NCBI GenBank assembly: GCA_019448385.1
Contig: JAGTXO010000005.1
Location: 992,001 to 1,056,000, forward strand
Source of the DNA: Diacronema lutheri
Lineage: Eukaryota; Haptophyta; Pavlovophyceae; Pavlovales; Pavlovaceae
Direction: 5' to 3'
DNA: 64,000 nucleotides
Below, piece by piece: positions 5,586 through 60,720 of the stretch. The position numbers were made by a program, and so were the translations under genes. The first letter of the stretch is position 1. The number at the start of each line of letters is the position of its first letter. A model generated the notes under the pieces. It saw only the letters and a list, made by a program, of their open reading frames with translations. It ran no database searches and was not told where the DNA came from.

Positions 5586-6413
5586 TCATCGCTTCCCAAA
5601 GATGGTCGAGCCGACGCGCACGCTCGTTGAGCCCATCCGTATCGCCTGCTCAAAGTCTGCGCTCATGCCCATGCTCAGCCCGATCGTCGCCTCGGGCACG
5701 CCCAGCCCCTGCGCCACCTCCTTGCGGCAGCCGAGCATGCGCTCGAGGCACACGGGGTTGGGCGAGTAGTCAAGCGCGCCAATCGTCATGAGCCCCTCGC
5801 ACCGCAGCCGCTTGCACTTTGTACGCACGTGCTTGACGAGCTCGAGCGCGTCGGCCGGGTCGACGCCATGCTTGGACTCCTCGCCGCTAGAGTTGACCTG
5901 CACGTAGACGGCGAGGGGTTTCTTGCGACCGCAGGTCGCGCAGGCCTTGTCGAGCGCGTCAGCGATCTTGACCGAGTCGACCGATTCGACGCATGCCAGG
6001 TTTGGCAGCGTGACGATGTGCTTTGCCTTGTTGGACTGCAGGTGGCCAATGAAGTGCCACTGGCAGTCGGCCGGCAGGAGCGGCGCCTTGTCCATCATCT
6101 CCTGCACGTAATTCTCGCCGAAGATGCGTTGGCCCGCGTCGTACGCCTCGCGCACCGCCTCGGGCGGCTTCGTCTTGCTCACCGCGACCAGCCGCGCCGG
6201 CGCGGGCTGGCGCAGCTCCGCGGCGAGCGCGCGCAGGCGCGCGCGCACGGCGTCGAGCGCGGCGGCCACGCTGCTCGGCGGCGCGGCCGGGCGCGAGGGT
6301 TGCGGTGCACCCGCGCCGCCGCCACCCAGCCGCCGCCGCCGCGCCAGAGCGACAAGGGTGAGCGCCACGGCTGCGATCGTCACGGTCACAGTCGTCGCGC
6401 GCGCAGCCGCCAT
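5586..6413 (-). CDS. PLPBP: Pyridoxal phosphate homeostasis protein (PLPBP/YggS family)
   Basis: A 275-residue single-exon protein. The TIM-barrel family signature is clear: LVAVSKTKP with the PLP-binding Lys near residue 80, then IFGENYVQEMMDK, WHFIGHLQSNKAKHIV, VYVQVNSSGEESKHGV, LMTIGALDY and LSMGMSADFEQAIRMGST followed by VRVGSTIFGKR at the C-terminus. The family binds PLP without known catalysis and buffers vitamin B6 and amino-acid pools. The first 30 residues are hydrophobic and then Arg-rich (TIAAVALTLVALARRRR), unlike the bacterial protein. That suggests an organelle-targeting peptide or membrane anchor. Length without this leader matches the family's usual ~230-245 residues. It is divergent from the large membrane protein at 6535, 121 bp between starts. 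Confidence 0.95.
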   Translation of the reverse strand: MAAARATTVTVTIAAVALTLVALARRRRLGGGGAGAPQPSRPAAPPSSVAAALDAVRARLRALAAELRQPAPARLVAVSKTKPPEAVREAYDAGQRIFGENYVQEMMDKAPLLPADCQWHFIGHLQSNKAKHIVTLPNLACVESVDSVKIADALDKACATCGRKKPLAVYVQVNSSGEESKHGVDPADALELVKHVRTKCKRLRCEGLMTIGALDYSPNPVCLERMLGCRKEVAQGLGVPEATIGLSMGMSADFEQAIRMGSTSVRVGSTIFGKR

Positions 6414-6534
6414 GACGATCGCGAGAACCTCCTTTCACAGGCGGGGTCGCGTGACGCCCGTTACGGCAATCGGTGCGGTGAACTCGGTTGCATGGCTGAA
6501 CGTTGGGCTGCATTCCGATATTGTTAAACCCAGA

Positions 6535-9500
6535 ATGCCTTGGCCCTTCCACACGCCGGGCGCCAGCGGCACATTTGCCGCGGCGCTCGCCGTGCTCGCG
6601 CTGTGCGGTGCGTCGGCGGGTGGTTCGCCGTCGCCGCCGCCGTCGCCGCCGCCCCTCTCGTTCCCGCCGCCCCTCCCGCCGCCGCCGTGCGCCGACAACC
6701 GCGCATGGGTGAACGGCATCTGCGTCGAATGCGCCACCGGCCTGTATGCCGACCGCAGCGGCGGCGGGCTGGCCGAATGCTCGTCGTGCGCGGCGCTCAA
6801 CCCGAAGCTGACGACCGCCGGCCCCGGCGCGGCGGGCGTCGACGCGTGCATATGCAACAACCCCATCATGGTGCGCTCGGTCAACGGGAGCGGCCAGATC
6901 CTGTGCGAGTGCCCCGCCGGCACGTACTACTGCGCCGAGTGCGAGCACTGCATGCCGTGCCCGCGGGGTACGTTCCAGCCGACAGCGGGCGCACAGACCC
7001 GATGCCAGCCGTGCTCGAGCACCGACGCGCACCTCACCACCGCATCGACCGGCGCGACGAGCCTCGCGCAGTGCGCGTGCGAGCACTCGTCGTTTGCGCT
7101 CACGCGCGCGGCGCCCAGCGGCGCTCCGCGATGTGAGTGCCCGCCGGGCTCAGAGTACGACATTGCGCTCGGTTGGTGCGTTGCGTGCGCGCGGCGCACG
7201 TACAAGGCGACGACGAGCCTCACCGACACGTGCCGGCCGTGCTCGACCAGCCTGCTCGGTGCGATCGGAGAGGACGCCGTCGGCCTCTCGTCGCTCGGCG
7301 AGTGCGTGTGCGGCTCGGCGCTCTTCGAGGTGGGGCAGCGGAACAACGGGCAGGACGAGTGCCAGTGTCCGGCGGGGATGGAGCTCAACGCGTCCTCGCT
7401 CTGCGAGTCGTGCGCTGTTGGCCACTACAAGGAGCAGCGCGGCACGGGCAAGTGCAAGCCCTGCCCTGCCGGCACGTACCGCGAGGGTCCGCCTGCGACG
7501 TCGTGCGTGCCGTGCCCCGCGGGCTACTACAATGACGCGACGGGCCAGACGACATGCAAGCTGTGGTGCGCCCGCCACACGTTCAGCCTCGACGGCGCGC
7601 GCAGCTGCTCGCCGTGCGGCGACGTTGCCTTCTCGACAGGCGGCGACTGCACGGACGGCGTCTTCAACGGGCCGGCGGCCGGCTTCTGGTCGTGGCCTCT
7701 GGACGAAGAGTACGAAAGCGCGCGCGCGGCGCGCGACGCGACGCGCGTCTCGAGCAGCCGCTTCTACCCGTGCGCCGACGCGTGGGCATGCGCAGGCGGG
7801 CTGGGCTCGGCGTGCATGGGCAAGCGTGTCGGCCCTCTCTGCTCCCTCTGCCCGTCCGCGCACCGCACGCGCGTCGACGGCCGTTGCGAGCGGTGCGAGG
7901 CGGACGCGTGGTCCTTCTCGGTGGGCGTGCTCTGCGCGATCGTCTTTGCGCTCGTCATCGTCATCGGCTGCTTCCTCCGTTGTGCATGCTGGATCGTCGC
8001 GCAGGCCGCGGACGAGGACGAGGCAGACGTGGCCGCCGCACACGGCAAGGCGGGCCACGATGGCGCGGCGACGGCACGGTCGGCGGTGAGCGCAGGCGGC
8101 CCGGGCGTCGTGGCCGACACGGAGATGCCGCTGCCGCTCAAGTGGCGGCGCGCCGAGCGCGTCAAGATTCTGCTCACGTACCTGCAGGTGCTCGCAAGCC
8201 TCACCTTCTACTCCGTCAAGTGGCCGTGCGTGTTCGCCGCCTTCCTGAGGCCGCTGCGGCTGCTGCTCGGCGACCTGACGGTGCTGCCGCTCTCGTGCCT
8301 GCTGCGCGGCGACGACATGCTCCGCCGCTTCGCGATCAAGGAGGCGCTCGCCCTCTCCGCCCTCCTCATCTCCCTGCGCGGCGTCCGGGTGTGCGCCGGA
8401 CGGCTGCCGACGCCGTGGGACAGCCGTCAGAGTTACCGTTACGAGGCGGCGCTCACAACGGCGCGGCTCGCCGTGTGCTACGTCACGTTCCCGATGATGA
8501 GCCTCGCCGTGCTCCAGCTCTTCGAGTGCGTCGACCTTGGCCGCGCGAGCTACGTGGCCGCGGAGATGTCCATCGAGTGCGGCTCCGACCGATGGTGGCT
8601 CTTCGCGATGCTCGCCCTCGGCTTCGGCGCACTGCACATCGTCGGCGTGCCCGCCTACTTCTTGGGCGTCGTGCTCCACGTGCAGCGCTGGCCGGCGCTG
8701 CCGTGGGAGTCGCACAAGGACGCGCTGCGCTCGCTCGTCTCGGACGGGATGGCCAAGGGCGTGCGGCGGAAGCGCGACTCGGAGATCTTCCACAGCTTTG
8801 AGGAGCAGCAGGCGACGCAGAGGCCGCTGCTCGACCACCTCGGCGGCGCGGTGCTTGCGTCCGTCTACCGCCTCGACCGGCCCGCCGCCGCCGCGCGCAT
8901 CCAGGACGGCGGGCCGACGTCGCGCTCGGACCGCCTGCGTGACGCGCGGTGCGCCGAGCCGTTCGGCCTCGCCTACGCCGCGTACACCGCGCAGCTCTGG
9001 TGGTGGGAGAGCGTCGAGTGCGCGCGCAAGCTGCTCATGCTCGCGTTCATCAAGCTGTGCGCGCCCGGCTCGATGACGCAGATCGTCGTCGGCCTGTGCG
9101 TCGCAATTGTCTACGCGGTGCTCGTCGCCACCGCCCACCCGTACTCGCACGGCACCGAGCAGCGCCTCGCGCAGGCGTGCAACCTGTGCGTGTGCGCGCT
9201 GCTCGCGGCGGCGCTCGCGCTGCGCGCCGACGATGCGGGCGCGAGCAGCCTCGACTGCCGCGCGCTCTCTGCGCCGCTGCTGCTCGTCGCCGCGCTGCCG
9301 CTCGTCGTCGCGCTGCTGCCCCACCCGCTCGAGCGCCTCTTCGCACCGCCGCTCGCGCTGCTCGCGCGCTGCTGTGGCTTCCGCGCCGAGTACGACGACG
9401 ACGATGATGATGAGTACGGCGACGACGAAGACGACGACAACGACGGCAGCGCGGCGCGGCGCAGCGGCTCGAGCAGCGCGCGCAGCCGCTCCGCGCGCAA

Positions 9501-10410
9501 GGGCGCGAGCGAGCTGACCGCCGACGAGATTGCCGAGGCGCAGGACGCGCTCGACGATTTCTTGATGGACGATGCCGCCTTCATCTGGACGCAGTCGACG
9601 CTGCCGTCGCCGCGCGGCAGCGGCGCGCCCGTCTCGCAGAGCGCCGCCGCCGGCCTGCGCCCGGCGACGGCACATGCGCGCCGCGTGCCCTCCACCACCG
9701 ACGACGATGCCGAGCGCGACACGCTCGCATCCTCCTCGCAGCCCAGCACGGCGCGTGACATGGCGCGCCCGGCGCCGGACGCGCGCGCGGGCGCGGCCAA
9801 GTCGGACCGCTCGTGGGCCTTCTCCGGTGGCGGCTCTGACGATGGCGCGTCGCCCGGCGGGACACCGCGCGACGGCGCTACGCCGCCAGCAGCTGCACGC
9901 AGCGGCGGCGGCGACGACGGCGACGACGGCGCCGCGCCCGCCGTGTGCAAGGCGGCGGGCAAGGCGGACCGCGACTGGCGCTATTCCGAGGTGACGAGCG
10001 CTCCCTCCAACCGCACGTCTCCGCCCAAAGAGGACAGCGACTGGCGCTACTCCGAGGTGACGAGCGCGCGCACCGCGCGCACGTCCAAGCCGAAGAGCGA
10101 CCGCTCGTGGCGCTACTCGCAGGCGCAGACCGGCCGCACCCGGCGCACAACGGACGAGTCGGAACCGGGCGGCAGCGCGCTCGTGCGGCCGCAGCCGGGC
10201 GGAGCGCAGGCCGAGAAGGAGGACACCGAGTGGCAGTACTCGCAGCGCAGCGACGGCGGCTCGCAGCAGCTGCCGCCGCGCGTTCTGGGCGCACAGCGCG
10301 GGCGCGCGGGCGCGGCGCCGAGCGGTTGCAGCGCGGCCGGCGACGCGACTCACACAAGCGACGATGGCGACACCGCGGACGAGGCTGATGACGAGCGCCG
10401 CCGCGTGTGA
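6535..10410 (+). CDS. Large membrane protein with GCC2/GCC3 cysteine-rich repeats and multi-pass domain
   Basis: A 1,291-residue protein from ATG 6535. Upstream in-frame codons overlap the opposite gene and were not used. A signal peptide (FAAALAVLALCGASA) is followed by a Pro-rich stretch, then about 400 residues of ephrin-receptor-like GCC2/GCC3 repeats (CPAGTYYCAECEHCMPCPRG, CKPCPAGTYREG, CVPCPAGYYNDATGQTTC). The first membrane span is near residue 465 (VGVLCAIVFALVIVIGCFL). Several more follow, including the conserved-looking WWWESVECARKLLMLAF and MTQIVVGLCVAIVYAVLVA. The cytosolic tail has an Asp/Glu run near residue 950 and five repeats K-x-D-x-[SDE]-W-x-[YF]-S. Such extracellular Cys-rich plus multi-pass proteins are common in protists. 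Receptor or channel role is inference and I cannot assign a named family. Confidence 0.8.
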   Translation: MPWPFHTPGASGTFAAALAVLALCGASAGGSPSPPPSPPPLSFPPPLPPPPCADNRAWVNGICVECATGLYADRSGGGLAECSSCAALNPKLTTAGPGAAGVDACICNNPIMVRSVNGSGQILCECPAGTYYCAECEHCMPCPRGTFQPTAGAQTRCQPCSSTDAHLTTASTGATSLAQCACEHSSFALTRAAPSGAPRCECPPGSEYDIALGWCVACARRTYKATTSLTDTCRPCSTSLLGAIGEDAVGLSSLGECVCGSALFEVGQRNNGQDECQCPAGMELNASSLCESCAVGHYKEQRGTGKCKPCPAGTYREGPPATSCVPCPAGYYNDATGQTTCKLWCARHTFSLDGARSCSPCGDVAFSTGGDCTDGVFNGPAAGFWSWPLDEEYESARAARDATRVSSSRFYPCADAWACAGGLGSACMGKRVGPLCSLCPSAHRTRVDGRCERCEADAWSFSVGVLCAIVFALVIVIGCFLRCACWIVAQAADEDEADVAAAHGKAGHDGAATARSAVSAGGPGVVADTEMPLPLKWRRAERVKILLTYLQVLASLTFYSVKWPCVFAAFLRPLRLLLGDLTVLPLSCLLRGDDMLRRFAIKEALALSALLISLRGVRVCAGRLPTPWDSRQSYRYEAALTTARLAVCYVTFPMMSLAVLQLFECVDLGRASYVAAEMSIECGSDRWWLFAMLALGFGALHIVGVPAYFLGVVLHVQRWPALPWESHKDALRSLVSDGMAKGVRRKRDSEIFHSFEEQQATQRPLLDHLGGAVLASVYRLDRPAAAARIQDGGPTSRSDRLRDARCAEPFGLAYAAYTAQLWWWESVECARKLLMLAFIKLCAPGSMTQIVVGLCVAIVYAVLVATAHPYSHGTEQRLAQACNLCVCALLAAALALRADDAGASSLDCRALSAPLLLVAALPLVVALLPHPLERLFAPPLALLARCCGFRAEYDDDDDDEYGDDEDDDNDGSAARRSGSSSARSRSARKGASELTADEIAEAQDALDDFLMDDAAFIWTQSTLPSPRGSGAPVSQSAAAGLRPATAHARRVPSTTDDDAERDTLASSSQPSTARDMARPAPDARAGAAKSDRSWAFSGGGSDDGASPGGTPRDGATPPAAARSGGGDDGDDGAAPAVCKAAGKADRDWRYSEVTSAPSNRTSPPKEDSDWRYSEVTSARTARTSKPKSDRSWRYSQAQTGRTRRTTDESEPGGSALVRPQPGGAQAEKEDTEWQYSQRSDGGSQQLPPRVLGAQRGRAGAAPSGCSAAGDATHTSDDGDTADEADDERRRV

Positions 10411-10579
10411 ACGGACGAGCGCCGAGCGCGGCTAGTCTGCGAGGCGACGCCGAGTCATGCGACGATCGAGTTGACGCCGCCGGCCGCGCCGGCACGCCCT
10501 GCTTGGCCGAAAAAGTCCACAGCGCCTTTGACCTCTCGAATAGAACTCCTTGACCCGGCCATCGTGAGTGGCGGTCGCG

Positions 10580-13500
10580 ATGTGGGGCGTGGCGTCAGCC
10601 CTGGCGATCGGGGTGGAGCCGGCGCTGTATGGCGCGCTGCTCGCCGCGTGCGTCGCGTCAGGCCGCCCCTTCTTCTCCGCCGCGACGCCGTGGGTCGAGC
10701 ACGGTGGCGTGACGCGCAAGGCCTTCCATGTGCTGCTCGTCGCGTTTGGCGCCGCGCGCGTCGCGTGGGCGCTCACCGAGCTCGCGGGACTGGCATTCGC
10801 GGGCGATGACTCGGCGTGCCTGCACATCGTCGCGATTCCGGCCACCAGCCTCACGAGCGCGCGCGCTGCGCTCTGCGGCGGCATCGACGCGGTGGCTCTG
10901 TCGCTATTCACGAGCGCGTTCCTCCTCGTCTGCGCGCAGCTTGCCGACCTGATCGTGCGCGGCTGGCGCTCATCGGTGCGATTGTGGGCGGCGTTCCGCA
11001 TCGCAATTGCGCTCTTGTGGACGTACGTCCTCTCCACGCTCGCGCTCAGCGCGTTTGCGCACGCCGACGCGGCGCTGCAGCAGGCGGCGTCCCAGCGCGC
11101 GCGTGGCGCGGGCGCGGGGGCGCTGTCGGTCGAGGTGGGGTACCACGAGTGGTCGTTCTGCGTGTTCGGCGCGTATTCGCTCCTCGTCGCCGGTTGCGCG
11201 ACCGTCGCGGGCGCGCGCCTCGTCCGCGCGCAGCACGGGCACGGCGGAGGCTACCTGTCCGTTGTGCGGCTCGGCGGCGCGTCGTCGGCCGTCGGTTGGT
11301 TCAATGGCGGGGCGCTGGCGCGCGCGCGGGGGCGCAGCGGCGGCTGGCCGTACAGCCAGGCACTCGCGCTCGCCGGCGCGTGCGTGTGCTGCTTTGCGCT
11401 GCGCGCGTGCCTCTTCGCGTATGCGCTGAGCTTGGCGCTCAACGAACGAGCGCGCGCGCGCGCGCAGCCGGGCGCGGGCTCGGCCGCGGCCGCGGCAAGC
11501 GCGAGCGCGCTCGGCCCGGTGACGTGGCGCGTGCTCGCGTACTGGCTGGCCGAGCTGCTGCCGTGCGGCTGTCTCCTCTGCGCCGAGCGCATCCTCGTCT
11601 CGCTCAAGGTCGACTCCATCCGTGCGTGGTCGAACACGCAAATCCGCGTCGCAACCCACCTCTCCACACGCCGCGCGGCGCGCGCGCGCGAGCATGAGTC
11701 GGCAGCGCGTGCGGACGGCGTGTGGCTGCGCGGCGAGGCGGCAGGTGAGCGGCCAGTCGTCGCGCCGCGCTCGCTCTCCGGCAGCCTCGGCAGGGCGATC
11801 TGGGGCGCGGCCGCCGCGGCCGTCGCCGCGACGGTCTCGGCCGGCGAGCGGCGTGGCCGCGCCGAGCCGCGCAGCGCGCGCGCGATGCGATGCGCGTCCG
11901 TGGTCGACAGCGGCGGCTGTTGCGCGACAGCTGGCTCCAACGGCGCCTCGCAACTCGACGCGTGGCCGCGTCGCGCGCCCCACACCGGGCACGCCGGCGA
12001 GCGCGAACGTGGTTACTGCAGTGAGGGTGATACGCCGCGTGCGCTCAGTGGAAGGGTTGTTGGCCCGTGGACGTCGTTTTCGCGCGCGAGCGCGCAGGAG
12101 GACGCGGAGGACGACGGTGCGGCCGACACGCGCTGGCACGGCGCGCGCGCCGCGCTCGATGATCGCGAGCGGGACGGCGGCGAGGCCGCAGGCCCTTCCC
12201 GTTGGCGCGCGCGCGCGTCTGCGGACGGCGGCCTAAACGAACGGCTGCTCGGCGCGCGCGCGCCGCACGGCGCGGCGAGCGGCGGCTTGTCCACGGGCGC
12301 GTGCTTTGCCAGCCGGCCAGCACGCGCCGCGCCGGTGAGCGTGAGGGCGATTTGCAGCCCTCTCGCTGCGGCGGGCACGGTCGCTAGTTCTGCGGCGGCT
12401 GCTGCCGTCGCTGGCTTGCGCTGCGTCGTCGCGCACACGGCGGCGGCGGCCGAGGCGGCGGCGATTGCACCGCCGTCGGGCGCGGGCGATGCGCGCGCCT
12501 CCGCCGTGTACGTGCTCCGTCCGCCGCCGCCACAACCGCCGCGCCTGTCGCATGGGTCGCAGACGCAGAGCGCCGTGCGCACGTGGCCGCCGCCGCGCCA
12601 GCCGCCGCCCGTCCGACGGCGCGAGCTTGGCGGCGATGCTCACGTCGGCGGCGTGCCTGGCGCGAGCGTGGCCGCCGAGCCGGCGTCGCGTCCCACCGAG
12701 CAGCCGCCGCCGCCGCCGCCGCCGGCGTCGGCTCGGCTTCTCGTGCTGCGCGAGGTGCTCGTCGAGGGCCCGCTCTCGTTCGCGCTGCCGGCCGCGTGGC
12801 TCTTCCGGCTGCTGCAGCAGCGGCAGCAGCTCGTCCGCGCGCTCTCGGACGCGCTGCACGCGATGGAGAACGCCCCGCACCAGCCTTGCGCGGCGGCGGG
12901 CGCCGACGAGCCAGACGCGTCGCCGGCCACCACGCGCGGCGGCGCGCGCGCGCCGCGCCCGAGAGAGACGCAGGGCGCGAGCGTGCTGCGCGCACTCTCG
13001 CAGGAGCTACGCGGCGAGCGCCGCCAGTCGGGCCCGTCGTGGGTGCGTGCGCAGCTGATGAAGCATGGCGACCATTGTGATCAGCTGCTGCGTCTTCTTG
13101 ACCTCAGTGAGGACTACGGGGGGCAGGCGGGCGGCCTCTGGTTCAAACCGTCGACGCGCCGTGCGGACAAGGCGCTCAGCTGCATCCCGATCAACTTGCA
13201 CATCCACTATGTGCACGTGCTGCCCGTGCACCTGCCGCCCGCGCCTGCTCTGGCCGAAGGTACGCCCGCGTGCGCTGCCGCCGACGCCGATGCGCCGCTA
13301 CGAGCGCCGGCGGCCGACGCGGCGGCCGACGCGAGCTTGAGCTCGGACGAGGAACGCGCGCTCAGCGTAGCGGGCACCTTCCGCCCGGCCGGCGGCGGCT
13401 ACCCTGGCTCGCTCCACTTGACCGTTACGGCCGGCGCGCCCGCCGCGCATTCGCTCGGCTTTAAACGCGGCGGCGTGCATGACCTTGACCTGCGGCTGCA

Positions 13501-16168
13501 GCGCGTATTGCGCAAGCTCGAGATGTGCCAGCAGCAGCTGCAGCGCCACTGGGCGCGCGCCGCCGCCGCCGACGCGGCCGAGGCCGGCGGCGCACGCGAC
13601 AGCGCGCGCGCGCCCGCCTCCTCGGCGTGCGCGTGGCCTGACCGCATGGCCGACGCGCTCTCGCCCGCCGAGCAGAGCGCGCGCTTGGATCTCACGGCGG
13701 GCGCGGCGGCGGCGGCGGCGGCGATTGCGGCCGCGGTCGCCGTGCCCTTCCGCTGGCCGCTGAGCGCGGACGACGCGCTGCCAGACGCGGAACTTGCTTC
13801 GCCCTCGCTCTCGCCTTCGCGCCATCGCGCTGGGCCGCCGTCCGAGTGCACGGCGGAGAGTGACGGCGATGGAGGCACAGGCGAGGCGCGCGGCAGCGAC
13901 GACGAGGAGCTCGAGGCAACTGGCGGTAGCAGCCAGAACGGCGGCCGCGCCGTCGCCGGCCGCGCCGAGTGCGCGGCGCGCCGCCGCCACACTTTTGGCG
14001 CGACGTCGCCGTGTCTAGCGGCTGCGGTCTCAGCCGACGCGATGCGCACGCCGCCGCGGCGCGCGCGCGCGAGCATGGGCGCGTACGACGAGGGGCGACA
14101 TAGCAACAGCAGCGGCTGCCCGACGCCTGGCGGCAGCCACACGTATGCGCAGCTGCCGCCGCGCTCGCCGCGTTTTGCGGCCGCGACGACGGCGGCCGAG
14201 GCAGTCGCCGCTTTTCAATTGAGCGCCGCGGCTGGAAGCGAGCAGAGTGTGCCGGGCACACCTTCAGCCGACTCGCTCGCGCTGCTCCGGCGCGTGCCCT
14301 CCGCATGCACGCTCTCGTCCGCTGTTGACTGTGCATGCGCGGGCGGCGCGGGCGCAGACTGGAGCCGGGCGCGGCACGCGCGCACGAGCTTGCGCGCCGG
14401 CGACGGCGCAGGCGGCGTCGGCGGCGCAGGCAGCGTCGGCTCGGCGCTCTCTGCCCTGGACGACGATGCGCCGAGCACTTCGAGCAGCGCGCCTGATTTG
14501 CTTGGTGATCTTGGCCTTCGCGCCGCGCACGCCGCGCTGCCGAGCGCGCCCTCGCGCGGCGCGGCCGGCACGCCGCGCGTGTCGCCATGCCGCACGGTCG
14601 GCGCGATCAGCTCGAGCGCGCGCGGCCTGCCTTTGGCGCAGGAGCGCGAGAGCGCGCGCATCGCGGTCGGCCGCTGCGAGTACCTTTCCAAAAAGGCGCA
14701 GCAGCTGCGCTTCGAGCGGATGGAGCGCCTTGATGACTGTCTGGCGCAAGCGATCACGATTGTGGGCACGGCGATCACTGCGCAGCTGCACGCCCTCCTG
14801 CACGCCGCGCCGGACGAGCACGAGCCGAGCGCGCAGCCCGGCGCGGCGGCGGCTGATGCGCCTTCGTCCGAAGGGGCGCGCGCCGCGGGCGGAGGCGGTG
14901 CGCCCTACTCGCCACCGCGCGCCCTCTCCGCCGCGAGCGCGCGCACGCTCCGGCAATGGGCGCGCGTCGGCGCGTTGGTCGGCTGGGAGTCGGTGCTGTC
15001 CACGGCAGGCGCTGAGGCCGGGATGCTCTCCGACATGATTGGCTGCGTGCACGAGCTGCGCCGGCAGAGGCTCGGCTTCTGCTGCGCGCGTGCGGATGCG
15101 CGCTCGCCGCACGCGGTCTGGGCGGACGAGGCGCCGCACGCGGCCTGGGCGGACGAGGCGCCGCACGCGCGCGCGCCAACGGTGCCGCGCGGCTCGGCGG
15201 CGCCCGCCGCCGACTCGTCTGCCGCCGAGCACGATGCCAGCCGGTCGCAGCAGCGCTGGTGGGCGCGCGAGTCGGCGCGCGCGTCCGCCGCGCCGGCCGC
15301 AGCGAGCGGCACAAAGGGCGCGGCGCCGGGCGCGCCTGCGTGCGACGAAGTTGGCGCCCATGTCGGTTTTCGCGCGTGGCGGTGGGCGCGACAGGGCGCA
15401 TGGGGCGATGCGCTCGAGGGCACGCTCGCGCTGCCCGACGTGACCGTGAGCGCGCACGGCCCGCCCGACAGCCGTCTACTGCTCTGCGTGCAGCTGCCGA
15501 GTCACCTCTTCGAGCTGCTGCCCGCAGAGCTGCAGGGCGGCCGCCATATTGATTGCACCCTTGCGCTCTTCTCACAGGGTATCAACGTCGCGCAGAACTT
15601 TGTGAGCGCGGTGGGCTCGCCGCTCGTCAGGCTGCAGGAGCGCGTGAACGCCGAGTCGCTCGTGCTGCTCTCGGCGCACGTGCGCGCCGCGCTCGACGCG
15701 GAGGCGCACGACGTGCATGCCGCCGGCGCGGCGACGCTGAGCAGTGTGGGCATCTTCGAGGCGAGCCGGCACACGAGCAGCCGCGCGGGCCTCGTGCTTG
15801 CAAAGCTGCAGCGCCTCGCGCACCTCGTCGCGGCGTCGCGCAATGAGACACACGTCGACATCTTGCTGCTCGGCGAGGAGCTCGTCCGGCAGCTGCGTGG
15901 CGTGCGCATCACCTCGTGCAAGTCGGCCAAGGACCGGACCGCCATGTCCGTGACTGCCGAGCACGCGTCCATCCTCGCAAGCGCGCACGGCCTGTCGGCG
16001 GCGGACGCGGAGCGGCTCGCCGCGCGCATGCGGCGCGAGGGCGTGCGGCTGCACAACGCGCGCAAGAACACGGGCCGCTCGTTGTACGCCTTCTCGCGGC
16101 TGCAAAGGCAATGGCTGCCGGAGCGCTACGCCCCGCCCGAGGGGACGTACGCGCGCGGCAGGACCTGA
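10580..16168 (+). CDS. Multi-pass membrane protein fused to INPP4-type phosphoinositide 4-phosphatase
   Basis: A 1,862-residue single-exon protein from ATG 10580; the frame continues upstream to a GTG at 10568. The first ~360 residues have about seven hydrophobic spans (for example ALYGALLAACVASG, AFRIAIALLWTYVLSTLAL, WSFCVFGAYSLLVAGCATV, LALAGACVCCFALRACLFAYAL). The middle is long, Ala/Gly/Ser-rich and probably disordered. The C-terminus carries HIDCTLALFSQGINVAQNF and the CX5R signature CKSAKDRT (Cys about residue 1780), both diagnostic of type I/II inositol polyphosphate 4-phosphatases, which remove the 4-phosphate of PI(3,4)P2. The catalytic Cys, Arg and both Lys of the loop are present. 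The N-terminal part resembles a seven-helix receptor or TOM1/THH1-like domain; that identity is uncertain. The fusion suggests membrane-fixed lipid signalling. Confidence 0.85.
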   Translation: MWGVASALAIGVEPALYGALLAACVASGRPFFSAATPWVEHGGVTRKAFHVLLVAFGAARVAWALTELAGLAFAGDDSACLHIVAIPATSLTSARAALCGGIDAVALSLFTSAFLLVCAQLADLIVRGWRSSVRLWAAFRIAIALLWTYVLSTLALSAFAHADAALQQAASQRARGAGAGALSVEVGYHEWSFCVFGAYSLLVAGCATVAGARLVRAQHGHGGGYLSVVRLGGASSAVGWFNGGALARARGRSGGWPYSQALALAGACVCCFALRACLFAYALSLALNERARARAQPGAGSAAAAASASALGPVTWRVLAYWLAELLPCGCLLCAERILVSLKVDSIRAWSNTQIRVATHLSTRRAARAREHESAARADGVWLRGEAAGERPVVAPRSLSGSLGRAIWGAAAAAVAATVSAGERRGRAEPRSARAMRCASVVDSGGCCATAGSNGASQLDAWPRRAPHTGHAGERERGYCSEGDTPRALSGRVVGPWTSFSRASAQEDAEDDGAADTRWHGARAALDDRERDGGEAAGPSRWRARASADGGLNERLLGARAPHGAASGGLSTGACFASRPARAAPVSVRAICSPLAAAGTVASSAAAAAVAGLRCVVAHTAAAAEAAAIAPPSGAGDARASAVYVLRPPPPQPPRLSHGSQTQSAVRTWPPPRQPPPVRRRELGGDAHVGGVPGASVAAEPASRPTEQPPPPPPPASARLLVLREVLVEGPLSFALPAAWLFRLLQQRQQLVRALSDALHAMENAPHQPCAAAGADEPDASPATTRGGARAPRPRETQGASVLRALSQELRGERRQSGPSWVRAQLMKHGDHCDQLLRLLDLSEDYGGQAGGLWFKPSTRRADKALSCIPINLHIHYVHVLPVHLPPAPALAEGTPACAAADADAPLRAPAADAAADASLSSDEERALSVAGTFRPAGGGYPGSLHLTVTAGAPAAHSLGFKRGGVHDLDLRLQRVLRKLEMCQQQLQRHWARAAAADAAEAGGARDSARAPASSACAWPDRMADALSPAEQSARLDLTAGAAAAAAAIAAAVAVPFRWPLSADDALPDAELASPSLSPSRHRAGPPSECTAESDGDGGTGEARGSDDEELEATGGSSQNGGRAVAGRAECAARRRHTFGATSPCLAAAVSADAMRTPPRRARASMGAYDEGRHSNSSGCPTPGGSHTYAQLPPRSPRFAAATTAAEAVAAFQLSAAAGSEQSVPGTPSADSLALLRRVPSACTLSSAVDCACAGGAGADWSRARHARTSLRAGDGAGGVGGAGSVGSALSALDDDAPSTSSSAPDLLGDLGLRAAHAALPSAPSRGAAGTPRVSPCRTVGAISSSARGLPLAQERESARIAVGRCEYLSKKAQQLRFERMERLDDCLAQAITIVGTAITAQLHALLHAAPDEHEPSAQPGAAAADAPSSEGARAAGGGGAPYSPPRALSAASARTLRQWARVGALVGWESVLSTAGAEAGMLSDMIGCVHELRRQRLGFCCARADARSPHAVWADEAPHAAWADEAPHARAPTVPRGSAAPAADSSAAEHDASRSQQRWWARESARASAAPAAASGTKGAAPGAPACDEVGAHVGFRAWRWARQGAWGDALEGTLALPDVTVSAHGPPDSRLLLCVQLPSHLFELLPAELQGGRHIDCTLALFSQGINVAQNFVSAVGSPLVRLQERVNAESLVLLSAHVRAALDAEAHDVHAAGAATLSSVGIFEASRHTSSRAGLVLAKLQRLAHLVAASRNETHVDILLLGEELVRQLRGVRITSCKSAKDRTAMSVTAEHASILASAHGLSAADAERLAARMRREGVRLHNARKNTGRSLYAFSRLQRQWLPERYAPPEGTYARGRT
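15106..15174. repeat. Tandem duplication of a 24-bp coding unit
   Basis: Within the phosphatase-fusion gene, a 24-bp unit occurs twice in a row and encodes WADEAPHA twice. It keeps the frame and lies in the low-complexity linker ahead of the phosphatase domain. Confidence 0.7.
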
Positions 16169-16282
16169 GGCGCCCTTTAGCGTGTGCGTTTCACAGGCGA
16201 ACAGTTTCAGCGGCTGAACGCACCGAGCAGGGAGCGCCGCATGGGCCCTGCTCCCGCCCTCGGATGCCGCGCCGTTTGCGCC

Positions 16283-16739
16283 TCAGTTTGCCTGCAGCTC
16301 GAAGACGACGATGGCGGACTTGCGCAACAGGCCGAGGAGCGTGCGCAGCCTGTGCGGCGTGAAGTGCGCGTACAGACGGTAATGGTCGTCAGCAACGAGC
16401 TCAGCGATCCACTGCAGGGAGCGGCTCGCCGTGGCGCCGTCCGAGTCGAGCCGAGCGGTCTGCAGCAGCGCCGAGTGCGCGAGCTCGACCATCTGCGGCA
16501 CGCAGTGCGCCTTGAGCTGCGTGAGCTGCACACTGCGCTCGCGAGACGCCTGCTCATCGCACCCGCCCGCACCCGCCCGCGCACCGGTGGCAGCGACGCC
16601 GCCATCGTGGTGGTCCTCGAGCCAACCGTGCGGCGTGCGCAGTGCGCCATCGAGGGCACGGACGGCCGCATCGCACAGCTCGTGGAGGGACGCGCGCCAT
16701 TCCTCAGACTGCGCGATGCGTGCGTGGGTGGTTAAGGGG

Positions 16740-16773
<34 letters not shown>

Positions 16774-19766
16774 GTCAATAAGAGCAGCGCGGGGATGGGA
16801 TTGGGGGAAGGGGGGGGGGGGGGGGGGGGGGGGACATGGCAGGAATCGCACCTTGCCAGCGGAGGCCGCGCGCAGAGCCGGATCCTTGTGCGACGACGCA
16901 AAGACCCACCTGCCCAGCGGCGGGAGGCGCGCAGGCGGCGGCGGTGGCATGCACTGTCAGCAAGGTGGCGGGTGGCGCGACGACGGGCGCGGCGGGCGCC
17001 AAGGCGGCGTGCACAGCGTCGCAGGGGGGGGGGGGGGGGAGGCTGCGCCATGCGGACGCGCTGCCGCTGCAGTCGCGCAGTGCGCGGCGAAGGGAGCCGC
17101 CCCGCGCGACCTCTCGCGCACGTGCACGCACCACTCGTGGTACGCAGCGAGCGCATCAGAGTAAGCAGCCCATGAGTAAAACTCACTGACGCAGTTGTTG
17201 ACTCGGCGCTGCGCGTCAGTCGCGGGCGCGGCGCTCCACAGCTCGTTCACGCGCTCGGCGGCGAGGAAGTGGGAGGGCAGAGCGCGCGCGCCGGACAGCA
17301 GCGCGACGGTGCCATCCGCCGTGCCGAACGAGCCCTCATCCGCGCCGCCGTCCGGCTGCGCGCGTGTGAGGAGCTGCTGCAGTTGGCCAGTTGAGACCAA
17401 CTGGGCCGTGAGTGCGTTGCCGTGCACGAGCGCCTGACTCAGCCGCGTGCGCGCGCTCTGTGCGCTCTCACTTGGTAGCGGCAACGTGAGCCAACGCAGC
17501 GCGCGGAAGGCGGCGCGTGCCTCCGTTACGTCGCTCATCCCCGCCAGTGCCGCCTGCGCAGCCGCATGCGGCCACCAGGCGGGCAGCCCCGCGACGGCCG
17601 CGCAGCACGCGGCGCAGAGCGTGGCCTCGCCAAGGACGGGCGAGAGGGTGGCGAGCACGGCGAGTTGCTGCGCGCGCGGGCAGGCGGGGCGGGGCGGGGC
17701 ACAAGAGCAACCCGCGGCGGGTGGGCGGGTGGGCGCTGATTTTGAAATCGCGGGTCGCCGCCAAAGGGGGCAAGGAAACGCTCGCGTGAACGCGGCGGTG
17801 CGCGCGCGCCCACCTGCGCCTCCGACGCGATCGCAGCCCAGCGGCGCAGGAAGGAAGCGACGACGCGCAGCGCCGCGTCACCATCACCGTCACCGTCACC
17901 GTCACCGTCACCGCCCTCCTCCGCCTCGACCGCCGCGAGCTCTGCCGCGTGCTGCGCGACGGGCAGCGCGAGCAGCGGGCCCGTCGGATCGGCGGGCGGA
18001 TCGGACGCGCCGACGCGCAGCCGAGTAGCCGCCGCGCGACACGCCGCATCGGTGACGGGGCAGTCGGAGAGGATGAGCGCAAGTGTGTGTGCGTACGTGC
18101 GGTGGACGCTCACAGCGCTCGGTGGCGCGCGCGGTGGCGCCTCGCCGCTCGCCGCGGCGGCCGCGTCCTGCGCCGCCGCCCGGCGTAAAAAGAGGAGGAG
18201 GTGGCTGCCAAGGCGGCACACGTGCGCGAGCAGCGGCAGCTCGGCGGCGGCCACCTCTGACACGCCGTCACGCGCGCTGAGCGTCGAACCATCGCCAGCG
18301 ACGGCCGTCTCGTCCGCCGCGCCGCCATCGCTGCCGCCCGCGGCGCTGAGCGCCTCGACGCGCGTGCGCAGCGGCGCGAGCAGCGCGTGCAGCGCGTCGC
18401 TCACCTCCGCGCACAGTCCGGCCGCGCTCCCGGACGCGCGGCGCATCCGGTCGAGCACGAGAAGGCGTTGCAGAGCCTCAACAGCGGCGGCCGCGCTGGC
18501 GCCACCAGCGAACAGCGCGCCGCCGGCCACGCCCTCCTCCTCGCCCGCCCAACGTACCACGCGCCCGCCCGGCTCGCGCGCGCCGTCCGCGCGCCGCGGC
18601 CGCGAGGCGACGGCAGCGTCGCGCAGCTCGCCGTCGACGCCGTCGACCGAGCCGCCCAGCGCAGCCGCCACCTGCAGCGCGTCGATGGGCAAAGCGCCGG
18701 CGCCGGCGGCCCGCTCGCTGGTCTCGCCGCCGCGCGCCGCGCGCGCCGCCTCGAGCCGCTCCTCCACGCGCGCGTGCACGAGCGCGTGCAACCGCGCCCA
18801 TGCCACGTCTTGCCAGCAGGAGCCTACCGCCTCCATCGTGCGGCCGTCTCCGCAGAGGTACGCGTAAAGCGCGCGCTCGTGCGGGTCGGAAGCGCTCTCC
18901 GCGAGATGGCGGCACGACTCGAGCCACACACCGCGGTGCGGGTTGCCCGCCCATGCGTCGACCGTGCCCGCCGCGTCCGCGCCCGCGTCCGCGCCCGCGC
19001 CGAGCTGCGCGCACAACGCGCCGCCGATCCGCTCTGCGGGCACAGATCGGCGCTGCCAGAGCTGACCGCCGTCGAGGGTGGCCGCGCGCCACGGCTGGCC
19101 GCACTCGTCGCACAGCCGCTGCGCCTCGTCGAGCCGGCCCGCACGCACGAGCTGCCATGCTGCCGCGAGCAGCCCGGCCTCGTCAGTCGCATCCTCCGGG
19201 TCGAGCGGCAGCCGCTGCCGGTCGGGCGCGTCCGCGTCGACCTCGCTCACGATGCCGTCGGTTTCGATGCGCGCGGCGAGGCGGAAGAGGGTGTTGCGAT
19301 GGAACGCGTCCGTCCGCACGAACTCCACCCGCTCGTATGCCACCGACTCGAGCCACTGCACCGTCGCGCGCGCGATCGCGAGCGCAGAGTCTGCCTCGAA
19401 GAGTGCGTCGACGATCGACTGCTCGTCGGCGCAGCCCCACGAAAGGGAGGTCGCGTCGGTCGGGGCGGCGATGAGCGTGGGCGCGGGCATGCGCGGCCAG
19501 TCCCGGTACAGCCACTCGAGCAGGTACCACATGTTCCGCTCCGCGCGCAGCAGCGCGAGCTCGTCGAGCGCTGCGCGCCGCTCGGCGAGCGTCACGAGCT
19601 CGCCGCGCGGCGGCGCAAGCTCGGCCTCGAGGACCTCGACGGCGCGCTGGCAGAGCGACGTGTACTCGCGGAAGAGGATGATGTGCGTGGGTACATCGGC
19701 CGCGCCCGGCGGCGTCGCTTCGAATCGGCGGAGTGCCTCGGCGAACGGCGTATCGAGCTGCACCAT
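16283..19766 (-). CDS. NUP107: Nuclear pore complex protein Nup107
   Basis: Three exons inferred: 17814-19766, 17122-17667 and 16283-16708, giving 974 residues (human Nup107 is about 925). Exon 1 has the Nup84/Nup107 hallmarks NPHRGVWLESCRHLAE and ERALYAYLCGDGRTMEAVGS. The last exon ends with the typical DDHYRLYAHFT then LRTLLGLLRKSAIVVFEL. Nup107 is a helical scaffold subunit of the Y-complex of the nuclear pore. Intron 1 (17668-17813) has GTGGGC...GCGCAG, phase 0, and joins EAQ to QLAVLATLSP. Intron 2 (16709-17121) has GTGCGC...GCGCAG, phase 0, and holds three C-runs on the transcribed strand; its donor is less sure than its acceptor. Start ATG 19766; an upstream in-frame GTG would run into the opposite gene. 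GTCACC repeats near 17879-17910 encode a Gly-Asp run. Confidence 0.9.
16743..16833. repeat. Two long G homopolymers (C on the transcribed strand) in NUP107 intron 2
   Basis: Runs of 28 G (16743-16770) and 24 G (16810-16833) on the plus strand. They read as C in the NUP107 transcript and lie 34-125 nt upstream of the inferred 3' splice site. A third run of 16 G is at 17024-17039. They may serve as the polypyrimidine tract. Confidence 0.85.
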
Positions 19767-22568: not shown

Positions 22569-25500
22569 TCAGGCCGGTCGCAGCCCGGCAGTGCGCGCAA
22601 CCGCCTCGGCTGCAGAGGCGGCGCTGCCCGGCGTCGGGCGCTCGTCACTGTCGTCATCGCTCGGCTCGGCGAGCGGCAGACGGGCTGGCCGTTGTGCGAA
22701 TCCCTGCTCGCCATGGTCATCATCATCATCGTCGTCGAGCATCGCAGGCTCGATGCGTCGCCACCCACCCGCGCGCGCGGGTGGCGTGGCGGGCGTCGGC
22801 GTGCGCGGCGACCGCGGCCGGCTCGGCGAGCGCGAGCGCGACGAGGGCCGGCCAAGCAGCAGCGCGCCCGACCCATCGAGCTCCGCACGTCCCATCCGCG
22901 CGGTGCGCGCGTACGCGCCATGGCCAACCGCCGACGGCTCGGCGCGCGCGTCGCCATGCTGCCGGGGCGCGCAGCCGGCCTCGTCAACTGCCGCCATCGC
23001 CTCGCGCTGCGCAGCTGTCGGCGGCGCGGCGATCGCGCGTACGAGCTGAGCACGCGGGCTGAGCGCGACCGCGCGCTCGCCGCGCTCGCCGCGCTCGCCG
23101 CGCTCGCCGCGCTCGCCGCGTTCGTCGCACGCGGCGTGCGCGGCGTGCGGCTGCGGCTGCGGCGGCAGATCGACGCGCGCGGTCGCGCGGGGCGGCGAAC
23201 GTGGCAGGTGCTCGGGCGCAAAGCGAGCGGGGCGCGTGCGCGCGCGTCCGAGCGAGAGAGCACCAAACGCGCGTGCGTGCCGCGTGAGCCCAAGGAAGCC
23301 ATCAGCACTCTCAGCCTCGTCAGCCTCATCCGCCCCGTCCCCGCCCAATGCGCCACCTCTCTCGGAGCCGTACGTGCTCGCGCGCTCGGCCGGCCAGCGC
23401 GTGAAAGCCTGCCGACGCCAACCGGCGGGCAACGAGGCGCTGCCCAGGCTTGGGCGGAGCGAGGCAGGGTCTGCTGCGTCCGAGTGCAGCGCGCCGTACC
23501 GCGCGTGCCCGAGCGTGCGCGCGGCCGCGGCGTCATACCGCCAGCGCGCGCTCGCCTGCTGCTGGTGCACCGGGGACATGAGCTCTGTCGCGGCGCCGAG
23601 CCGGCCGAGCTCGTCGGAGGTGCCCGCGCCCGCCGACGTGCCGTCGCCGAGCCTAAGCCGGTCGCACGAGTTGCGGAGCGGCGAGAGCCGGCGCGCCTGC
23701 GCGCGGCCCCACGCGCTGCCGTGCGCGAACGCGGCGCGTGCGCGACCGGCCGCCGTCGTTGCCTGCGGCGTGCCAGCAACGGACGAGCCCGCGACAAACT
23801 CGCCGTCCGCTGCACCGTCGTTGCGCCCGCACGGCACCCACGAGCCCGACGTCATGTCGAAGACGACCATCGGGACGCTCTCGGGCTGATCAGGCTCGCA
23901 CGGCGCGCAGCACGGCACGCCACGCGTGCAGAGCGCGCCGCGCTGCGCGCCCGCACGCGCGCACGCGCGCGCGACGGCCGCGCGGCCGCGGCGCGTGGCG
24001 GCCATCGTGGCGATGCAGCAGAGCGCGAGCGCTGCGATGGCCGCAAGGAGCGCGCGGCTGTGCGCGCGGCTTTCAAGCGCCTGCCACCACGGCGGCGCGC
24101 GCGCGTCGTGCGCGCCGCTCGGCACGCCCCGAGGCAGCGCGGGCGCCGCGCCCGGCGACGGCGGCGAGCGCGGCGCCGGCGCTGCCTCGGCTGCCAGCAC
24201 GGCGGGCGCGCACGCGTCGTGCGACGTGCCGACCGCGTCCGCGCCGCGCGCCGCGCACGCGCGCACGAGCAACGCGCCGCGGCGAAGCAGCGCCCACTGC
24301 GCGGCGGTCGGCTCGCACGCGAGCTCGGCGTCCGACTCCCACGCGAGCGCGACGCACGGCTGCGCGCGCGCGCTCGGCGCGGCACCGTCGAGCAGCTCGA
24401 TGGTCGGCGGTGCGGCCGCGGGCGCTTGCGGCCAGCTCGGCGCGTGCGCGCGCAGCTCCGCGTCCGAAAGCGGCGCGTTCCATAGACGCAGCGCGTGCAC
24501 GCGCACGAGCCGCGCGTCTGAGCCGAGCGCCGCGCCGCCCGCGCGCGGCGGCAACGCACCGGCGCGCGCGGAGCAGTCCGGCGCGGGTCCGGCGTCCGCA
24601 AGCGCGAGCTGCGCGAAGGGCGACGACCATGGCGACGGAGCCGCAGCGCCGCGCTCCGTCGGCCACGGCGCCGCACCGCAGCCGCCGAGGACGACGGCGA
24701 TGTCGCCGGCGCCGCGCGGCGGCCGCGCGGCGCCGTCACGGTCGCCAGGCGGCGTCGCGCCGGCGTCGGCGCCCATTGGCGCGCGCGCGAGCGTGCCGAT
24801 GAGCCTCGCACGCAGCCAATGGACAGTGTCGTCTGACAAGCGGTGCGAGAGCGTGCCGAGCAGCCGCCCGTCGAGGAGCAACTGCAAGGCGCCGTCGCCA
24901 AACCCCCAGGCGATCGCAAGGTCGTGCGGAGCCCCGTCTGCGAGCGCGCCGGCGCGCGCGCTCAGCCGCGCGACGCGACGCTCCGCCGACGGGGCCACGC
25001 CGGCGCGCCACGCGGACGGCGCGCCACCATTGCCGTCGTCGGGTAGCACGAGGAGCAGCTCGACGCAGCCGCACGCGGGCAGATAGGCGAGCTGCAGCCA
25101 CGATGGCGCCCACCCTGCCGGCGCCGCCGGACCAAGCATGGCTGGCGTGGCTCCGTCCGCGGCTCCATCCGCGGCGGCGGCGCGCGCAGACGCGCGCGCC
25201 GCCGTCGCGGACTGCGCGGCCGCGCCGGCCGCGTGCGGCGGCATCGCTTCTCTCAGCTCGAGCAGAACGAGCGGCGCACCGCGCTGCGCCTCGTGTGCGC
25301 GCGCTGCTTTTTGATCAACCGCAACGCGCAGGAGCAAAGTCAAACCCGATGCCTCTGAGCACGCGCCCGCACGCGCGCACGGCGGCGCGACGGCCGCGTG
25401 CGGCGCGGGCGCACGCCAGCCAGCGACCGCCACTCCGCGTCCGGCGCTCGTCGCGCCGCCGACCGGCTGCGCGCGCTCCTCCCATTGCGCCGCGCCGTCG

Positions 25501-26918
25501 AGTGCCGCCTCGCGCGGGTCGACGCACTCGTTCGCGCGTAGCCAGAGCGCCCCGTCTGCACCGCGCGGCTCTCGCGCGGCCTCGGAGCCGCCTGCGTCCC
25601 ACCGCCACGCGCGCAGCAGCCGCACGACGCCGAAGCGCGAGCCGCGCACGACGAGGCGCGCGTGGCCCGTGCCGCCACACGGGGCGCCGGTCGCCGTCGC
25701 GTGCTCAGGCCAAAGGTGCGCGCGCGGCTGCGCGGACGGCTCGCAGCGCGCGGACGAAACGAAGGGCGCGAGCTGTCCGCTCGACGCCGCGCCGCTCACG
25801 CCCTCGCCGTCGCCGCCGCTCGCAGCCGGCACGCACGCGCCCCAGCAGACCGCGCCTGAGCCGCACGCTCGCGCCGCGGCCGCGCACAAGGCGGCGCACG
25901 CGCGCGCGCGATCAGCCGCGCCAGGCTGTTCGGCGCGCTGCTCTCGGCTGGGGTCGAAGCGACTTGTGCTGAGCGCGCGCAGCGGCGCGGGCTGCAGAGA
26001 GGCGCCGAGCCGCGACAGCGCGTCGACGGCTGCAAGGCACGCGCCGCTCAGCGCGCCGCTCTCGCCGGATTGCGGCGCGCGCCAGGTCCCGCCGTCGCCG
26101 TCGCCAACATCGCCATCACCGCCATCGCCGCCGTCGGCGTCAGCGGCGGCCGCAGCGACCGGCGGCGAAAGGGCGACGCCCACCAGCGCGCCCGCGTCTC
26201 CGCCCGCGCCTGCACGCGACGGCGGCGCGTGCGCGGCCAAAGGTGCGCCACCCTCCGACGCAGCCGGCGCCGCAACGTGCGCCCAGCGCAGGCGCACGCT
26301 CACGCGCGCGCACTCGCCACCGCCCGCACCCGCGCGCGCGAGGAGCAGCAGTCGATGCGGCCGCGCTCCTGTCTCGGCGCCGCCCGCAGCCATCCCCCAG
26401 TCAAAGTGCGCCGGGTGCACGCGCGACACGTTGAGCGAGCCACCGCCCTCCCCAAGCGCCGCGACGAACGCGGGCGCGCGCGCGCGCGACGACGCTCGCT
26501 CGGCTGCGCCGTGCATCGGCCGCGCCGCGCGCGCCGCGCGCTCGGCGCACGAGCGGTCGCGCAGCGCGCCATCAAGCCACGCCGACTCAGCGAGCGGCGC
26601 TGTGAGCGAGCGCGGCGACGCGCTCGACGCGGCCGGGCCGGGCGCGCCGGGCTGCGCGCCCGCGCCGCTGCGCTCGAGCGCGAGCAGCGCGGCGCGTGCG
26701 GCGTCGGCGTCGGCCTCGCGCGCGGCGCGCTCGGCCGCGTCGCCAAGCACGCTGGTCGGCACGAGCTGCACGCCAAGCAGCATGGCGTCCGTCGACTCAA
26801 TACACAGCGACGGCGTGTAGAGCGGCGAAGTGAGCAGCACGCTCGAGAGCGCGAGGGCGGGCGCGCCGACGCACGCGGTCACCTCGAGCCGTTCCGTGCG
26901 CCCCTCCTCCCAGACGTC

Positions 26919-26950
<32 letters not shown>

Positions 26951-28235
26951 TGCCGTGGCCACCGTCACTCAGCCGCACGCGCGACGATCCAAGCCGAATC
27001 GACTCAACGTGCGCGAGGCGCGCGACGCGCGCGCTCTGCGCGACCGGCGCGCGGTTGACGCGCGCTTCGCGCCGTTGCTGCTGCGTCGCGCACAGGGCCG
27101 AGAGGGCGCGCGATGAATGGCCGCGCCAGCTGCGCGGCGGCGCGAGCGTGAGCGCGGCGGCGGCGGCGGCGGTCAGGTCGGAGAGAAGCAGCGGGCCGTC
27201 GTCGTCAGGAGCGCTGGCGAGGCCGTCCGACGCAGCGCCCAGCGCCGTGCCGTTGGGTGCTGCAGCGGCGGCCACCTCGGCCGCCGCGACGCGCGCGCCG
27301 CCCCCGGCGCGCGCGCCATTCGCTGAGCGCAGCGCTGCGCACACGCCGCCCTGCCTGAAGCGCTCGCTCGACAGAAGCAGCCACGGGAGCAGCGTCGCGT
27401 CGCACGCCCGCTCCGACGGAAGCGGCGGCAGCGAGAGCGCGCCGAGCCCGCCCGCCCAGCCGCCGCCCGCGCCGCCATCCGCGCCAATGGCTGTCGCATC
27501 CTGCGGCGGCGCGGTGCTGCCCACCAATGCCGCCACCTGCGCGCCCGCGCGAGCCGAGCTGTGCAGCGCCTCGACGAGCGAGCGGATGAGCTCGTCGAGC
27601 GTCTGCAGCGCGCTCGCGTATGCGGCCGAGCCGCCGCCGTGCTGCGCCGCCGCGAGCGCGAGCGCGCCGAGCTCGACGACCGTCGCCGAGCTGCCGCTTG
27701 CGCCGAGCGAGCGCAGGTGCGCGCCCGCCGCCGCCGCCACGCGGCTATCGGCATCGAGCGCGGCCTGCACGCCGCAACGGCGCGCGACCATGCGAGCAGG
27801 TGCATCGGGCGCAAGCCCCACGTCCGCCGCGTCCCACAGGCACGCCTCCTTCGCACGTGCCGTGAACGCGGCGCCGCGCGCGCCGCCGGCGAGCGCCGGC
27901 GCCTGCGCGCGCAGCACGTCGAAGAGCGAGGGCGGGAGCGCGTCGCGGCTCGGCGCGCTCCCGCCCGCAAGGCACGCGTCGAGCTCGGCGCCGACCGCAC
28001 CCGCGCTCGTCCCGCGCACGAGCGCCGCGAGGCCGTGCAGCGCGGCGTTCGCACCGGAGACGCGCGGCGCGGGCGCAAAGAGCACGTCGGCGACGCCGCC
28101 GTCGAGGCTCGCAAGGAAAGGCGCGATCGAAGAGTTGGGCGCAGGGAGAAGCAACCCCGGGATCGCGAGGATCAGCACGGCGCTTGCCCCGCTGCCGCCA
28201 CCCCCGCCGCCGCCGCCGCTGCTCAGCGCCGGCAT
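22569..28235 (-). CDS. Giant type I membrane protein with laminin-G-like domain
   Basis: A 1,888-residue single-exon protein from ATG 28235; the frame extends to a TTG at 28256. After a Gly run, the hydrophobic AVLILAIPGLLLPAP is the likely signal peptide. Most of the protein is an Ala/Gly-rich ectodomain of unknown fold. Around residues 1050-1280 a concanavalin/LamG-like jelly roll is suggested by WLQLAYLPACGCVELLLVLP, APHDLAIAWGFGDGALQLLL, LDGRLLGTLS and LRLWNAPLSDAELRAHA. One membrane span follows (LLAAIAALALCCIATMAAT), then a tail of about 420 residues with PMVVFDMTSGSWVPCG and a GER repeat coded by 9-bp units near 23080-23130. LamG domains bind glycans or proteins, so adhesion or surface recognition is a reasonable inference. 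Internal introns cannot be excluded. Confidence 0.72.
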
Positions 28236-28316
28236 CCCCGGCCGCTCCAACGCCAATACTTATTTCCGTGCCGCCCAATTCTGAAAATCTGGAGGAAGTC
28301 GGAGTCTGGACCCAAT

Positions 28317-30109: not shown

Positions 30110-30161
30110 CGCGCCAACGCTGCTGCTTGCGCCTTTGGACGGGGCCAGGAGAAAATCAAAA

Positions 30162-36912: not shown

Positions 36913-37080
36913 TCCGGCCCCTCGATCCTCTCCCCCTTCCCCCCTCTCCTCCCCTGGATGCTGCGCCGCCTCCGAGCCTGGAGCCGACACCCGTTTTCAC
37001 TTTTTTCTGGCCCCAAAACTTCCGCGCAAAACTTCCGGCAACGTCCTATGCATGCGCTACGAGCGAAACGGCGGGGCATA

Positions 37081-60696: not shown

Positions 60697-60720
60697 CCCC
60701 CTGCTCACCGTCTCTGCCCC

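Follow-up and report, generated by a model that had tools for sequence, protein, structure and literature searches.

The described systems closest to the protein studied here are the GPCR-INPP bigrams, in which roughly seven membrane spans at the N-terminus and an inositol polyphosphate phosphatase at the C-terminus share one protein. In the 2018 survey of van den Hoogen et al., seven such genes were counted in P. infestans and one to nine in other oomycetes, and their occurrence beyond oomycetes was limited to the seven genes of Nannochloropsis gaditana (PMC5784254). In two haptophytes, E. huxleyi and C. tobin, the survey counts three and four GPCR-PIPKs, respectively (PMC5784254). A review discusses how the GPCR-bigrams might act, and the experiments cited there concern GPCR-PIPKs (PMC6033456). 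According to a 2022 survey, oomycetes possess INPP4 homologues and no robust INPP5 homologues, and therefore the oomycete GPCR-INPPs are probably of the INPP4 type as well. The main text of a 2025 survey of GPCRs in animal relatives does not contain the term 'INPP'; the one link to THH1/TOM1/TOM3 described there is structural, weak and confined to a single family. Among the literature matches listed, which covered few subscription papers and preprints, the fusion of seven spans with an INPP is reported from oomycetes and Nannochloropsis only.

Two further groups of proteins are relevant for the comparison. Animal INPP4B is described as a combination of C2, NHR2 and phosphatase domains, a description in which membrane spans are not mentioned, and it acts on PI(3,4)P2 (PMC3248162), which it converts to PI(3)P (PMC8149851). 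Its active-site motif is CKSAKDRT at residues 842-849 (PMC3248162), and the same motif is given for the mammalian 4-phosphatases (PMC3091653). The second group comprises the plant protein TOM1, which is tied to ARL8 and sits at vacuolar and other organellar membranes, and its kin GPR137, a seven-span protein of lysosomes that acts on mTORC1. Other facts used in these comparisons come from PMC9694693, PMC12716839, PMC3234234, PMC12223298 and PMC8379373.

Results

A long open reading frame with a membrane part and a phosphatase part

The window, that is the whole stretch of 64,000 nucleotides analysed, contains the following features of interest.

10580..16168, + strand: single open reading frame of 1,862 residues, ATG to TGA, comprising a seven-span domain, a low-complexity linker and an INPP4-type phosphatase
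10580..11614, + strand: seven-span membrane domain, residues 1-345, predicted by hydropathy
10715..11566, + strand: TOM1-like motif stretch with RKAFH (residues 46-50), CFALRAC (271-277) and YWLAELLPC (321-329), at spans 2, 6 and 7
11630..12859, + strand: linker, residues 351-760, rich in Ala, Arg, Gly, Pro and Ser, with the weakest coding signal at 561-720
13040..15082, + strand: INPP4-middle-like stretches, residues 821-1501, interrupted by low-complexity inserts
15443..16078, + strand: INPP4-type phosphatase core, residues 1622-1833, matched by phmmer to P-Rex2 and P-Rex1
15917..15940, + strand: active-site loop CKSAKDRT (C-X5-R), residues 1780-1787, identical to INPP4B 842-849

The frame holds no stop codon, against a mean of 19.05 in dinucleotide shuffles, and none of 300 shuffles was free of stops. 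Openness alone is weak evidence, because DNA of 75% GC readily gives long open frames on both strands: 61 stop-to-stop frames of at least 100 residues, this one included, overlap positions 9000-18000 on the two strands. The window has 72.7% GC, which is compatible with a haptophyte source: for the pavlovophyte Diacronema lutheri, 73.25% GC and 45% single-exon genes are reported. We also scored the codon usage, with a model trained on seven other reading frames of the window (4,194 codons) and not on the frame itself, in 23 windows of 80 codons covering residues 1-1840. The frame scores best of the three plus-strand frames in all 23 windows and best of all six frames in 19. A minus-strand frame outscores it in the remaining four, of which two lie in the linker (561-640 and 641-720) and two in an insert (1121-1200 and 1281-1360). 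The insert (residues 1060-1360) is stop-free in 3.5% of shuffles. The 410 codons of the linker stay open in 2.9% of 2000 shuffles, so that their openness gives mild support only. Judging from these sequence statistics, the whole frame likely lies on one transcript, with a weak coding signal in the linker at 561-720.

The membrane part

Hydropathy analysis gave 17 peak rows above threshold, 13 of them within residues 7-344. Merging of overlapping peaks resulted in seven spans with hydrophobic cores at 7-25, 48-66, 104-122, 141-159, 193-211, 261-279 and 318-336. A marginal peak at 68-86 (1.43, with two Asp inside) was left out, and the four rows at 595-623 and 1038-1056 are alanine-rich and were excluded from the span count. 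The GPCR-INPPs are defined by five to nine N-terminal spans, typically seven, and the seven merged spans fall within this range. Few residues precede span 1. Nine Lys and Arg residues lie in the loops that follow spans 1, 3 and 5, and another 11 in the 60 residues behind span 7, compared with six on the opposite side of the spans (hand-set span borders); this mild bias suggests that the C-terminus is cytosolic.

Searches with the membrane part gave little. Pfam recognised no family in it, even at E-values up to 10, and the single phmmer match in the PDB, a histidine kinase at E 0.097, was judged to be chance. An AlphaFold2 model of residues 1-365, made with no alignment, reached a pLDDT of 47 and a pTM of 0.35 and was rejected as evidence; a Foldseek search of the PDB with it returned five meaningless matches, all with E >7.

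These results agree with the earlier note on this DNA, which had placed a protein of 1,862 residues at 10580-16168 and described its first part as multi-pass membrane, with the phosphatase at its end. It had also proposed a check of topology and structure: the topology came out as seven hydropathy spans, while the structure model is too poor to lend support.

Resemblance to THH1/TOM1/TOM3

Proteins of the THH1/TOM1/TOM3 family (PF06454) have the motifs RKxFH before span 2, CFxLRxC in span 6 and YxLxExLPC in span 7, and look-alikes of all three occur here in the same order. For the comparison we used a provisional Arabidopsis TOM1 sequence, checked solely by its family membership: Pfam assigns it to PF06454 at 3e-140. 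The PF06454 model itself finds no match in our protein at E-values up to 10, a search in which the HMMER filters can lose weak matches. A plain local alignment to this provisional TOM1 is not significant: it scores 39, which 247 of 1000 shuffles equal or exceed, and both the reversed query and another membrane reading frame of the window reach scores of up to 44.

Span-by-span comparisons gave a different picture, although they were performed after the plain alignment had failed and their weight has to be judged with this order in mind. With hand-set borders the summed score is 176, which none of 300 within-segment shuffles reached (maximum 167). When the spans were permuted, 50 of 5040 orders reached 176, the true order among them, and the best order scored 195. 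Placing the spans at the hydropathy peaks gave a sum of 181, a value that none of 330 ordered control sets reached (highest 151); these sets were drawn from the other multi-pass reading frame of the window and their positions were picked automatically, whereas those of the query are hydropathy peaks. The signal comes from spans 2, 6 and 7, whose order matches that of TOM1, and the span-wise test shows no specific TOM1 signal for spans 1, 3, 4 and 5. The protein further differs from the family in its fusion to an enzyme. There is moderate evidence, based on a provisional TOM1 sequence and opposed by the plain alignment and by Pfam, that the membrane part may be akin to THH1/TOM1/TOM3; we regard this as a serious though unproven lead and do not assign the protein to the family.

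The phosphatase part

A phmmer search of the full protein against all PDB chains matched P-Rex2 (E 1.5e-7, residues 1622-1833) and P-Rex1 (E 2.9e-7, residues 1633-1830), and with residues 1603-1857 as query the E-values were 7.9e-9 and 1.6e-8; three non-P-Rex matches followed at E 0.07 to 0.55. The matched C-terminal region of P-Rex1 and P-Rex2, about 210 residues, is one we take to be their INPP4-like domain. The INPP4 homology is drawn from these two proteins, and the comparison with animal INPP4A and INPP4B consists of the active-site motif, which is the same CKSAKDRT. In P-Rex2 the corresponding loop reads CSSGVHRC; the two P-Rex alignments retain the Cys and the Arg but differ at most of the other positions. 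Since the whole INPP4B motif is kept, unlike in P-Rex2, the phosphatase part looks catalytically intact as far as the motif can tell. The intact loop and the INPP4-type phosphatase that had been read from the DNA beforehand therefore both stand, the latter through the P-Rex match and the exact active-site motif. The segment SQGINV, which the earlier note had taken as a further mark of INPP4, is present at residues 1665-1670 (15572-15589), in a stretch that is not conserved in P-Rex2.

Upstream of the core, FKPS (855-858), AAHSLGFK (955-962) and IGCVHELRR (1487-1495) are presumably look-alikes of the INPP4 middle region. No PDB chain was found by phmmer with residues 821-913. The matches of residues 1355-1500 and 741-1590, to an alphaRep protein (E 0.001), a splicing factor (E 0.028) and weaker ones, were judged to be compositional or chance. 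No family was recognised by Pfam or NCBIfam in the complete protein, nor by Pfam in four pieces of it. Pfam thus detects no C2 domain; a divergent one could escape it, because the Pfam scans recognised nothing at all in this protein. An AlphaFold2 model of residues 1420-1862, again with no alignment, had a pLDDT of 40 and a pTM of 0.27 and was rejected as evidence.

Search for relatives and neighbouring frames

The linker motif of GPCR-PIPKs, LR-x9-GI, does not occur in the protein. Pattern matches in viral contigs (0 of 4 and 0 of 16, in two of eight scans) and in prokaryote genomes (0 of 59, in one of two scans) yielded no confirmed relatives, in scans with a single protein that reach close relatives only.

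The window contains several other long frames. Directly upstream, 6112-10410 (+) encodes a large multi-pass protein with Ephrin_rec_like cysteine-rich repeats (five stretches, PF07699) followed by a TRP-like membrane region (PF06011). The 2,014-residue frame at 29946-35990 (+) has helicase-type AAA_11/AAA_12 domains, and its C-terminal stretch matches MTES_1575, an REase family, with an E-value of 1.7e-8, under the curated cut-off of that family. On the minus strand we find a frame in which a PDZ domain comes after a FAIM1-like domain (36127-36996), a Phytochelatin synthase domain in a 469-residue frame (37611-39017, E 1.4e-82) and an Orn/Lys/Arg decarboxylase of the OKR_DC_1 type (59104-61209). 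A 1,896-residue frame at 22569-28259 (-) has a coding-like codon score, with a model trained on parts of the frame at 10580-16168, and no Pfam match at E up to 0.01. Nup84/107 and Tub domains are also found among the neighbours and point to a eukaryote.

Discussion

We conclude that the locus probably encodes one protein, a GPCR-INPP bigram composed of an N-terminal seven-helix domain, a low-complexity linker and an INPP4-type 4-phosphatase with an intact loop. The C-terminal inositol polyphosphate phosphatase that characterises this class is given here by the continuous open frame and the likeness to P-Rex and INPP4B; the known members have oomycete or N. gaditana hosts, and we liken the protein to them by their described architecture. 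A real fusion of known kind is thus the most likely reading, with a TOM1-like membrane part and a non-stramenopile host as possible new points. The earlier note had called the arrangement comparable in idea to the receptor-enzyme fusions of oomycetes. This understates the case, as oomycetes and Nannochloropsis own the same combination.

The main concern with a single protein is that two genes, one for a seven-span protein and one for a soluble phosphatase of the INPP4 type whose start lies at an internal methionine, might appear joined by chance in DNA of 75% GC. In-frame methionines are indeed available at residues 436, 762 and 827, the linker is of a length that shuffles sometimes leave open, and a minus-strand frame has the better codon score at 561-720. 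However, the frame has no stop that would end the first gene, so this reading needs a spliced last exon, and the frame is the best of the three plus-strand frames throughout. Oomycetes and Nannochloropsis are moreover reported to carry this domain order within single genes (PMC5784254). We therefore consider two separate genes quite improbable. A fused but catalytically dead phosphatase part is more improbable still. The INPP4-like domain of P-Rex is a non-catalytic scaffold, and P-Rex1 and P-Rex2 are the best matches among solved structures, but their loops are mostly changed beyond the Cys and Arg, whereas our protein keeps the entire INPP4B motif.

A different question is what the fusion does. 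It could be a classical plasma-membrane receptor in which an external ligand starts or stops the removal of PI(3,4)P2, the scheme that van den Hoogen and Govers propose as Model A for GPCR-bigrams (PMC6033456), and the mild charge bias that would place the C-terminus inside the cell fits this proposal. The few residues before span 1, however, leave no room for a ligand-binding ectodomain, and the TOM1-like motifs suggest vacuolar or other organellar membranes. We can offer a surface receptor only tentatively, as somewhat unlikely. The claim of a receptor-like module wired to an INPP4 enzyme accordingly finds support for the enzyme and for the membrane part, while the receptor-like character is conjecture.

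For the GPCR-INPP bigram that we favour, the simplest reading is a membrane-fixed conversion of PI(3,4)P2 to PI(3)P, because Pfam recognises no C2 domain and the N-terminus carries a seven-span anchor. The phosphatase would face the cytosol and be held by the membrane domain, so that the anchor would substitute for the C2 domain that targets animal INPP4 and the product would arise at the anchoring membrane. The seven-span part might also gate the enzyme in response to a ligand or small GTPase. Should the resemblance to TOM1 be genuine, the protein would most likely sit at the vacuole; a membrane domain behaving like TOM1 would put the enzyme at a vacuolar or endolysosomal membrane, and the likeness would favour a phosphatase anchored in an endomembrane over a receptor at the cell surface. 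The most far-reaching version, in which a nutrient- or small-GTPase-sensing endolysosomal seven-span module of the TOM1/GPR137 type covalently sets vacuolar phosphoinositide identity, in a fusion that extends beyond stramenopiles, appears unlikely to us as a whole.

The significance of the protein depends on these two new points. If neither holds, the protein simply adds to a class already described. A TOM1-like identity of the seven-span part, if true, would provide a concrete hypothesis for the location and the regulators of such a fusion, a point that the bigram review leaves open (PMC6033456). And if the host is a haptophyte, GPCR-INPP fusions also occur outside stramenopiles, contrary to the 2018 survey, and the fusion would therefore be older or have been exchanged between lineages.
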